64,000 bases of DNA from contig NZ_VTWT01000001.1 of the NCBI RefSeq assembly GCF_008727925.1, forward strand, positions 248,001 through 312,000. Direction: 5' to 3'. This DNA comes from Adhaeribacter soli (lineage in GTDB: Bacteria > Bacteroidota > Bacteroidia > Cytophagales > Hymenobacteraceae). A program made the position numbers and the translations under genes. The notes under the pieces were generated by a model. That model had not been told where the DNA came from. It was given only the letters and a program-made list of their open reading frames with translations, and ran no database searches. Positions 3,995 through 35,362 of this stretch are shown piece after piece. The stretch's first letter is position 1. Each line of letters begins with the position of its first letter.

Positions 3995-4144
3995 TGTAGA
4001 GACGCAATGCTTTGCGTCTTATCCGGAGGTAGAACCAATCAAAACCATCTGAATTTCCCTTCCTGGTAGGTGGCATCATTTCATTTATTTTTACGGCAGT
4101 GGTCAGACGCAAAGTGTAGAGACGCAAAGCATTGCGTCTCTACA
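3995..4144. repeat. Two copies of the TGTAGAGACGC palindrome
   Basis: Copy 1 is at 3995-4020 and copy 2 at 4115-4144. Copy 2 is a 30-bp palindrome with one mismatched pair (arms TGTAGAGACGCAAAG and CATTGCGTCTCTACA). Copy 1 lacks the last few bases. This kind of REP-like palindrome is common between genes in Bacteroidota. Confidence 0.7.
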
Positions 4145-4161
4145 TTTCCAACCCCCAAAAC

Positions 4162-4193
4162 AAAAAAGGAAGCTGCTGGCAGCTTCCTTTTTT
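4162..4193 (-). terminator. Terminator of icmF (hairpin works on both strands)
   Basis: GGAAGCTGC (4168-4176) pairs with GCAGCTTCC (4179-4187), with A-runs before and T-runs after. It lies 50 bp past the icmF stop. Confidence 0.85.
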
Positions 4194-4243
4194 GTTTAAA
4201 GAAAATCGAACATTCGAACTACGAAAATTCGAACAATCCAAAC

Positions 4244-34242: not shown

Positions 34243-34447
34243 ATTTTTTAATTTGGAGATTTGAAGATTTGGAAATTTGAAAATGGAAAACTGGAAAGTA
34301 GGGCATTGAATCGTGATAATTAATAAAATTCAGGGACAAATTTAACCTTGAAGGTGTTTCAGTCTTTTTATTATTAACCAAAAATGATTTTGACGAATAC
34401 TCTTCATTTTCAAATCTCCAAATTTCCAAATCTCCAAATTTTCAAAT

Positions 34448-34777
34448 TCACTTCACCAGCAGCATTTTAAAATCGGCGATGGCTTTCAGGCTGTGCGGTT
34501 CCCTGGCCGGGATCAGGATCACTTCGCCGGCGCGGAGTAATTGTACATTGCCCTGCATGCTGAATTCACAAAAGCCTTCCAGTATTACCAACAACGCATC
34601 TTTGGAGGTTTTATGTTCCGGCAAACACTGTCCGGCGGAAAAAGCAAGGAGAATTGTTCTCTGACCGTCGTTGTCCAGTACCACTTTTCGTTGAAAATTA
34701 TCTCCTGCATAACTGATCTGATCAGCCAGGTTTTCCATGTTTTCAGTTATTTCCGGGTTTTCAGGTAAATACGACAT
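34448..34777 (-). CDS. Single-domain cupin protein
   Basis: The 109-residue protein has a cupin barrel: AFSAGQCLPEHKTSKDALLVILEGFCEFSM and LLRAGEVILIPAREPHSLKAI. Metal-binding His in PEHKT and in EPHSL are kept. The start lies 17 bp inside the end of the upstream small gene, so they are coupled. Similar cupins often accompany haemoglobin or NO-related genes; the role is unknown. Confidence 0.88.
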   Translation of the reverse strand: MSYLPENPEITENMENLADQISYAGDNFQRKVVLDNDGQRTILLAFSAGQCLPEHKTSKDALLVILEGFCEFSMQGNVQLLRAGEVILIPAREPHSLKAIADFKMLLVK

Positions 34778-34985
34778 TTTGCTGCAGGTTTATTAGGTAA
34801 AGGCTCAGTTGATTTTTTACATGTTCGAAATAAGTGGCCAGCCCCTCCGGATTATTGCTTTTCCGGAACGACTCCGGCAACGGGATCGGGTTTTGTTTTA
34901 ATTGCTCGAAAAGCGCCGGATCAGCCTTCTGAATTTCCAGCGAAAGAGCTTCAATTTCCTGAAGCGTGTGGCTTAGCGTTTTCAT
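34761..34985 (-). CDS. Small helical protein (first gene of haemoglobin cluster)
   Basis: The 74-residue protein reads HTLQEIEALSLEIQKADPAL, then FEQLKQNPIPLPESFRKS and YFEHVKNQLSLYLINLQQ. No domain is recognised. Its overlap with the cupin gene and its place behind a palindromic operator candidate support it being real. Confidence 0.68.
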   Translation of the reverse strand: MKTLSHTLQEIEALSLEIQKADPALFEQLKQNPIPLPESFRKSNNPEGLATYFEHVKNQLSLYLINLQQNVVFT

Positions 34986-35018: not shown

Positions 35019-35097
35019 CAGGTATTTAAAAAAGTTGAGGTTTTGGTCCGGCTTAAAGGATCTGGTATGCAGCTACCGGCAGGTACCTATGTCAGGG

Positions 35098-35247
35098 TTA
35101 AATAAATAAAGTGAAGGTTATCTTTTCCGGGGAAGCGGATTGGGGCGTTAACTTTAAGGATGCTTCCTTAGAAGAGATTCCGATGCACTTGCGTGTCCAG
35201 ACCAGGGTTGCCACCAGTACAAAAGCAGGTATCAGATAATCCTTCAT
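35098..35247 (-). CDS. Small 49-residue membrane peptide, divergent to the CcoI-like ATPase
   Basis: ATG 35245-35247 opens 49 codons: MKDYLIPAFVLVATLVWTRK and then a soluble tail with SSKEASLKLTPQSASPEKI. One TM segment (residues 4-17) is clear. A perfect TAATTTTG -7 box lies at 35267-35274 on the minus strand, about 20 bp before the start, with an ATGA-N6-TCAT site centred 33 bp further. This promoter layout is the main reason to call the gene real. The family is not recognised; it is not CcoS. Confidence 0.5.
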   Translation of the reverse strand: MKDYLIPAFVLVATLVWTRKCIGISSKEASLKLTPQSASPEKITFTLFI

Positions 35248-35266: not shown

Positions 35267-35362
35267 CAAAATTATTCAATGGAGCTGCCCCCGGCCATGA
35301 CCTAAATCATGCAGGGGCATGATAAACGTCATATTAACCGGCCCGGGAACACGGTAATTTTG
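35267..35362. promoter_or_regulatory. Symmetric divergent promoter with two Crp/Fnr-type boxes
   Basis: Minus strand: TAATTTTG at 35267-35274. Site 1: ATGACCTAAATCAT at 35297-35310. Site 2: ATGATAAACGTCAT at 35319-35332. Plus strand: TAATTTTG at 35355-35362. Both sites are ATGA-N6-TCAT palindromes; their centres are 22 bp apart (two helix turns). Each site centre is exactly 33 bp from the centre of the nearer -7 box, which puts it near -41 of its own transcript, the class II activator position. This fits activation of the copper ATPase and the small peptide by an Fnr/Crp-family protein, probably at low oxygen. Confidence 0.72.

Follow-up and report, generated by a model that had tools for sequence, protein, structure and literature searches.

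The 64,000-nucleotide stretch of the Adhaeribacter soli genome analysed here (the window) carries, upstream of a ccoI-like copper ATPase gene, two Crp/Fnr-type sites flanked on their outer sides by two -7 boxes on opposite strands, the four elements forming a mirror image. Does this arrangement amount to a single region driving genes in both directions, which protein would act on it, and what lies behind its leftward promoter? We consider it likely that two activator-dependent promoters share one mirror-image control region here, from which a Crp/Fnr-type pair would co-induce ccoI and a leftward unit. The promoter reading of the first-pass annotation of this DNA holds and goes further than was claimed there, and its reading of a small peptide gene fails. 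Many relatives keep the two-way switch while the content of one side differs. The features concerned are collected in Table 1.

Table 1. Features of the ccoI control region and of its leftward side (positions in the window), and loci of the candidate Pontibacter RNA
Feature	Position	Strand	Remark
Truncated haemoglobin, 136 aa	33832..34242	-	Pfam Bac_globin; PDB 2ig3, E 2.8e-17
Inverted repeat between cupin and haemoglobin genes	34255..34435	.	arms 34255-34279 and 34411-34435
Cupin protein, 109 aa	34448..34777	-	Pfam Cupin_2
74-codon ORF	34761..34985	-	no family match
Second remnant of the same membrane-protein gene (residues 111-125), other frame	35093..35137	-	3/8 queries, E 0.003 to 0.056
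49-codon ORF, probable remnant (residues 1-34) of a ~160-aa membrane-protein gene	35098..35247	-	47% identity, E 1.4e-6 with the best query
-7 box TAATTTTG, leftward promoter	35267..35274	-	predicted transcription start ~35262 (-)
Crp/Fnr-type site ATGACCTAAATCAT	35297..35310	.	-41.5 for the leftward promoter, -63.5 for ccoI
Crp/Fnr-type site ATGATAAACGTCAT	35319..35332	.	-41.5 for ccoI, -63.5 for the leftward promoter
-7 box TAATTTTG, ccoI promoter	35355..35362	+	predicted transcription start ~35367 (+)
ccoI-like copper P-type ATPase, 806 aa	35389..37809	+	Pfam ATPase-cat_bd, HMA, E1-E2_ATPase and Hydrolase
Candidate RNA loci, upstream of ccoI	L088-L104, L106, L107, L109, L111-L114, L119, L124, L126, L151, L163	-	
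Candidate RNA	L116		behind membrane-protein gene

ATGACCTAAATCAT and ATGATAAACGTCAT are the sole two ATGAN6TCAT sites retrieved from the window by a pattern scan (0.49 expected; at least two, in any placement, in 9 of 100 shuffles). The octamer TAATTTTG is by itself unremarkable, with 5 copies in the window against 7.3 expected, its placement being the special part. The centres of the four elements lie at 35270.5, 35303.5, 35325.5 and 35358.5, corresponding to spacings of 33.0, 22.0 and 33.0 bp, the 22 bp being counted from centre to centre with 8 bp of DNA separating the two sites. Sequence and pattern scans confirmed that the positions and spacing first reported for these elements were exact. 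On both sides the box has the form TAnnTTTG, which marks Bacteroidota housekeeping promoters of the sigma-A type, and the TGA/TCA half-sites of the pair presumably resemble FNR half-sites.

In Flavobacterium psychrophilum, the -7 box covers positions -12 to -5, as given in the available text of PMC9723704. Placed in the same way, the boxes of the window would centre each site at -41.5 for the nearer promoter and at -63.5 for the farther one. The distance of 33.0 bp between the centres of site and -7 box, identical on both sides, is equivalent to -41.5, i.e. to class II, only if the box spans -12 to -5, and the start points in Table 1 are predictions from this same rule (PMC9723704). We propose that two Crp/Fnr-type activator dimers would bind 22 bp apart, i.e. 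at about two helical turns. At its near promoter (-41.5), each dimer would act as a class II activator in contact with RNA polymerase, while for the opposite promoter it would stand at -63.5, a class I-like position, and one protein pair would co-induce ccoI rightward and a stress unit leftward. Low oxygen is a plausible signal for the promoter pair; the cbb3 oxidase of F. psychrophilum is up at low oxygen, according to the same available text (PMC9723704).

The rightward gene has the characteristics of ccoI/fixI: its product is a P1B ATPase with N-terminal metal-binding domains, and it is linked to ccoN, which it adjoins in g2 genomes such as G017 and G022 (g1 to g6 being genus numbers assigned by the search tool). 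The NCBIfam cut-offs for Cu- and heavy-metal ATPases were not reached by this product. In the A. soli genome itself, ccoN is found at C8:322499, the ccoNO-ccoP-ccoG cluster starting about 37 kb beyond ccoI; it comprises a fused ccoNO, a ccoP scoring below its curated cut-off and ccoG, with a ccoS-like ORF, recognised by eye, before them. The earlier proposal that a CcoI-like ATPase is one target of the promoter pair is supported.

CcoI relatives were taken from whole genomes and from named genomes, the nearest named relative being Adhaeribacter terrigena (94%), of the family Hymenobacteraceae. The family provided 66 ccoI loci, or 61 distinct ones after subtraction of 5 duplicates, a count which leaves out G019, G020 and G024, where ccoI matches in two pieces. 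A 22-bp pair of TGAN6TCA sites was detected in 55 of the 61 distinct loci, with at most 2 mismatches in all and with none in 51; the 6 loci without the pair were set aside. On the ccoI side, a TAnnTTTG box stands 33.0 bp from the near site in 49/55 loci. When nAnnTTTG was counted at 60 offsets, the forward box was found at 33.0 bp in 52/55 loci and nowhere else, and the mirror box in 43/55, i.e. 39 at 33.0 bp and 4 at 34.0 bp, with 3 occurrences over the other 58 offsets combined; the family rows being related, these counts do not represent independent events and carry no p-value. The mirror box was present in 2/2 loci of g1 (the genus of the window), 5/5 of g3, 4/6 of g6, 31/38 of g2 (which includes the named Pontibacter records), 1/3 of the g5 loci with the pair and 0/1 in Botryobacter; it was absent from 12 of the 55 loci carrying the pair. 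In g4 the 22-bp pair was absent from 5/5 ccoI loci and from 5/5 ccoN loci, and one g5 ccoI locus also lacked it. The first base of the mirror box is T in only 6 of the 39 cases at 33 bp and in 2 of the 4 at 34 bp, the box being usually G-initial (GACATTTG and similar). The layout of a divergent pair of class II Crp/Fnr-type promoters is kept in relatives, which was the very test on which the first-pass annotation had staked its proposal.

Outside the family, locus L148 (a Saprospiraceae MAG) carries, upstream of ccoI, the 22-bp pair together with TAnnTTTG at 33 bp. The flavobacterial loci L136, L139, L143 and L158 have a lone site upstream of ccoI and a leftward TAnnTTTG at 33 bp, which faces a divergent ORF of 229-248 aa.

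The predicted starts are just 105 bp apart, and the region might be used by one polymerase at a time, the promoters competing instead of co-firing. This appears unlikely to us: most of the loci that carry the pair have retained the two -7 boxes jointly, and 105 bp should be sufficient for two outward-facing polymerases. Co-induction from the shared region is the reading that we retain.

The same spacings recur elsewhere in the A. soli genome. A scan for CAAANNTA-N{8,38}-TGAN6TCA retrieved 35 places against 17 in the backward control, and the gap of 33 bp, out of 31 possible gaps, accounted for 7 of the 35 site/box combinations, against 4 for the next commonest gap. These 7 places correspond to ccoI, the mirror promoter, the ccoN operon, a DUF2249-ScdA_N-hemerythrin (RIC-like) gene, a universal stress gene, TauE and a gene at C13:311.9 kb. 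With spacings of 32-34 bp, the genes concerned are ccoI, the ccoN cluster, the RIC-like gene, two universal stress genes (one of them included solely via a mirror box 33 bp from a degenerate site), a FixL-like kinase (32 bp), a rhodanese (34 bp) and TauE. This looser scan replaced a strict one with ATGAN6TCA and TAnnTTTG, whose 9 places against 6 in the control did not suffice for testing the spacing.

Upstream of ccoN, the pair and a box at exactly 33 bp, one box mismatch being allowed, were found in 17/22 family loci, the other five belonging to g4, the same group as at ccoI; outside the family, the pair layout was found in 3/8 loci with poorer matches. The wider family count strengthens the spacing rules; a strict scan recovers the pair layout in 2/30 ccoN loci (one far-site mismatch) and a lone site in a third. 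The first base of the ccoN box is T, G and C in 2, 13 and 2 of the 17 loci, respectively, so that a first base other than T, as in most mirror boxes, is nothing unusual for this regulon. The RIC-like gene has the 22-bp pair as well, and fixL has it in a degenerate form. The exact mirror symmetry at ccoI follows of necessity if both promoters there obey the 33-bp and 22-bp rules. The first-pass annotation had presented this symmetry as very unlikely by chance; the placement is indeed exact and special, but the symmetry is not a separate improbable fact, since the two rules recur elsewhere.

Alternatively, ccoI could have a one-way promoter that, like the one of ccoN, uses two sites (-41.5 and -63.5), and the leftward TAATTTTG would then be a chance occurrence with nothing useful behind it. 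The eight ccoN loci checked and the RIC-like gene do carry the 22-bp pair without a mirror box, and the first leftward gene in the window is a probable pseudogene. We nevertheless regard a one-way promoter as very unlikely, because the mirror box is in register in 43/55 family loci and almost never at other offsets, and because it precedes haemoglobin, membrane-protein or candidate RNA genes. The two-way control region is preferred, a reading that hinges neither on the ccoN count nor on the kinase pairing taken singly.

A second mirror promoter was observed in locus L206 at ~880-1040 (C8:600.7 kb in the A. soli genome) and in L210. It has the FixL-like kinase rightward (32 bp) and a universal stress protein leftward (33 bp), the sites being 22 bp apart and the far one degenerate. 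This layout occurs in 2/2 species of the genus, A. terrigena included, and was not found in the three other genera checked.

Two proteins with a Crp-type helix-turn-helix, and no others, were found in the A. soli genome: a response-regulator/Crp fusion of 353 aa (C8:605 kb) and a Crp/Fnr protein of 215 aa on C13. Immediately upstream of ccoI, L088 (P. ramchanderi) encodes a Crp/Fnr protein that is 46% identical to the fusion (E 9.4e-52) and hardly matches the 215-aa protein (E 0.0095). At the same place in L040, a similar receiver-Crp fusion was recognised by eye. An FNR-type helix (REVISR, by eye) is present in the 215-aa protein, which has class II-spaced sites alongside. These sites read GTGAN6TCAC (2/2, a third such site being found at the stress gene of L078), unlike those at ccoI, ccoN, the RIC-like gene and fixL, which read NTGAN6TCAT. 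Given the match of the L088 regulator and the other site form beside the 215-aa protein, the fusion is most likely the activator at ccoI. The sites could instead serve the 215-aa protein, or another signal such as NO or sulfide: the FNR-type helix and the adjoining class II sites would suit this protein, and the haemoglobin and RIC-like genes would fit NO stress. With both the site form and the L088 match speaking against it, we hold this alternative to be possible but rather doubtful, and keep the fusion as the favoured activator.

In loci L086 and L208 (C13:309-312 kb in the A. soli genome), GTGAN6TCAC sites lie around the 215-aa protein and before TauE, and also beside an MBL-fold/rhodanese-like gene (by eye). 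These genes possibly form a regulon for sulfide or persulfide. Crp/Fnr homologues of Ignavibacteria, Flavobacteriales and Saprospiraceae are predicted to be carbon-sensing and MalR-like, in the available text of PMC8510549.

The gene of the FixL-like kinase has a Crp/Fnr-type site in its promoter, and 2.6 kb lie between its end and the fusion, which comes after it. The second PAS domain of this kinase (residues 143-268) aligns with the FixL haem domain (E 2.2e-33) and the RHD motif is kept; we take its histidine to be the haem ligand, i.e. the proximal histidine which, within a haem-PAS domain, characterises the FixL oxygen sensor. The NCBIfam cut-off for rhizobial FixL was not reached (322.8 of 850 bits). 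The fusion is perhaps driven by this kinase. Between the two lie a receiver gene, an ORF of no assigned family and a receiver-kinase gene adjoining the fusion, so that either kinase could be the partner.

On the leftward side, a 49-residue membrane peptide had been put forward as a hidden gene. The corresponding ORF looks truncated and frame-broken. Residues 1-34 of a membrane protein of ~160 aa match it with all eight queries (E 1.4e-6 to 0.25, best identity 47%), and residues 111-125 resume eight bases later in another frame (53%, E 0.007; 3 of the 8 queries), in a search on a 3-kb target with composition correction off. In a whole-genome search, the region of the 49-codon ORF was the only match to the membrane protein (E 0.016). 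In A. terrigena, no relative of the membrane protein was found, and the 49-codon ORF was not found behind the promoter of this sister species. Judging from these alignments, a ~160-aa membrane-protein gene that underwent an internal deletion and a frameshift most likely left this ORF behind as a relic. A hidden small membrane-protein gene, recognisable by an intact ORF conserved in relatives, was considered as a candidate and rejected.

The ~160-aa membrane protein has no Pfam or NCBIfam match and is encoded leftward in eight loci among those read (L019, L020, L031, L032, L034, L038, L042 and L116). A cupin-like ORF comes directly after it in five of them (L019, L020, L031, L032 and L038; synteny by eye). 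In L042, the leader of the membrane-protein gene contains a strong hairpin resembling a terminator, in an attenuator-like placement.

The truncated haemoglobin is a likelier leftward product than the 49-residue peptide, since it is the first leftward gene in A. terrigena (Pfam Bac_globin); it is likewise first behind the promoter in five g3 loci (by eye). The haemoglobin of the window belongs to group III going by its best solved relative (2ig3). It is located 1 kb from the promoter, behind the relic, the 74-codon ORF, the cupin gene and the inverted repeat, and has its own TAAATTTG box without a site. Because of this distance, of the inverted repeat and of the own box, co-regulation of the haemoglobin is weak in the window, and the inverted repeat may uncouple it from the leftward promoter. 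This repeat, which could be small and mobile in nature, is built of GGAGATTTGGAAATTTGG-type units. The make-up of the leftward unit keeps changing across genera: haemoglobin, membrane protein and cupin are found in several genera, haemoglobin comes first in A. terrigena, most Pontibacter have a structured non-coding RNA, and the window has the broken membrane-protein gene, the 74-codon ORF, the cupin and the haemoglobin.

In Pontibacter, the mirror promoter mostly faces no gene and instead a non-coding stretch with a strong intrinsic terminator at its end, whose longest ORFs vary by species. A model of this stretch, R1, matched 30 of the 35 named Pontibacter loci on the leftward strand (E 2.3e-24 to 0.0014); in 29 the match follows the mirror promoter directly, and in one (L116) it follows the membrane-protein gene. 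Matches were obtained in 30/31 named loci with the mirror box (the exception being L105) and in 0/4 without it; three further g2 loci without the box (L025, G012 and G022) gave no R1 match at ccoI. The model was built from 9 of the 30 matching loci, the 21 other matches being independent of its making. For 10 of the 30, the E-value is comprised between 4e-4 and 0.0014, a range also reached by off-target matches (L097 and L111, E 3e-4 to 5e-4); these weaker matches are backed by position and sequence too. In the loci search, 25 of the 55 R1 matches were not the RNA, many corresponding to the terminator on the opposite strand. The only R1 match of the window (4074-4197, E 0.018) lies away from ccoI. 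In 59 whole genomes searched with stricter filters, 21 had matches with E <= 0.001 and the A. soli genome had 0; among the matches listed, three (G007, G017 and G032) are at ccoI. The other whole-genome matches (up to 42.3 bits, G016) were discarded as resembling ordinary hairpin-terminators.

The structure used was taken from the L098 fold, applied to a subset of 9 RNAs that aligned better. In an alignment (A4) of just the 20 matches with E <= 1e-4, 93.9% of the pair cells are standard and both-side changes occur at 19 of the 24 pairs, counts which lean towards the L098 fold. The covariation score of these 20 RNAs was 0.476 against at most 0.108 with partners slid, the alignment being fitted to the structure. 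Five single folds gave z-scores of -3.7 to -9.5, with the terminator contributing much. RNAalifold on a plain MAFFT alignment of 26 RNAs was set aside: it returned 5 pairs, all in the terminator, with a covariation term of -0.2, and missed the first hairpin. In two clades (10 and 6 loci, respectively), identity reaches 94% and 83% in the 3' part, 73% and 53% in the 5' part, and 63% and 50% at the third codon positions of ccoI. With a class II-spaced promoter, an intrinsic terminator, a conserved structure and no conserved ORF, the Pontibacter RNA is, by sequence and structure, a candidate FnrS-like small RNA, for which Rfam at gathering thresholds gave no match in the five Pontibacter loci searched.

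In locus L116, the mirror promoter is followed by an intact membrane-protein gene, whose stop codon and 3' end are the place of the R1 match (E 4.3e-7 / 2.7e-7). The simplest reading is that the RNA is a leftover of the membrane-protein transcript. Within the Pontibacter RNAs, no membrane-protein remnant scored clearly above shuffled sequences (best E 0.027 vs 0.053; one shuffle per sequence), so that the idea of a messenger turned into an RNA rests on L116. We tentatively suggest, with somewhat less than even confidence, that a new oxygen-controlled small RNA arose from the mirror promoter. Pontibacter would have lost the coding part and kept, under strong selection, the activator-driven promoter and the structured 3' end (stop-codon region, hairpin and terminator); the Adhaeribacter window would represent an independent early stage, with the promoter kept and the ORF broken.

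Taken together, these results provide a promoter grammar for probable low-oxygen control in Hymenobacteraceae, i.e. 33 bp from site to -7 box and 22 bp from site to site, and name a candidate regulator for it. The most interesting consequence, the candidate RNA, lies outside the window. If the reading is true, this RNA would be an oxygen-linked small RNA in Bacteroidota, where the first trans-encoded small RNA with known targets dates from 2020 according to the available text of PMC7366714. The series of loci with an intact gene, a broken gene and the RNA only would offer a view of a messenger becoming a regulatory RNA. Among the matches listed from the open-access PMC literature, no title or abstract opening dealt with this promoter layout or with a small RNA of Pontibacter.

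In rhizobia, the FixL-FixJ-FixK cascade controls fixI, the homologue of ccoI. The same cascade controls fixNOQP, as described in the available parts of two reports (PMC7888657, PMC9104804). The system proposed here is alike in its FixL-like haem-PAS kinase, its Crp-type regulator, and its cbb3 oxidase and CcoI genes as likely targets. It differs in that the receiver and the Crp-type DNA-binding parts are found in one protein, so that no separate FixJ-to-FixK step would be needed, and in that the kinase pairing is presumed. In E. coli, fnrS is transcribed from a class II FNR-activated promoter with its site at -41.5, as stated in the available text of PMC3032703. The ccoI pair resembles promoters of this type in the -41.5 site centre, as judged by spacing, and in its low-oxygen genes, whereas it has the Bacteroidota TAnnTTTG box and two 22-bp-spaced sites common to two mirror promoters. 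Finally, the Pontibacter candidate is similar to enterobacterial and gonococcal FnrS (PMC3032703, available text) in being a short RNA with a class II FNR-type promoter and an intrinsic terminator. Unlike FnrS, it lies opposite ccoI, is without an Rfam match in the five loci searched, and has in one species a 3' end in common with the 3' end of a membrane-protein gene.
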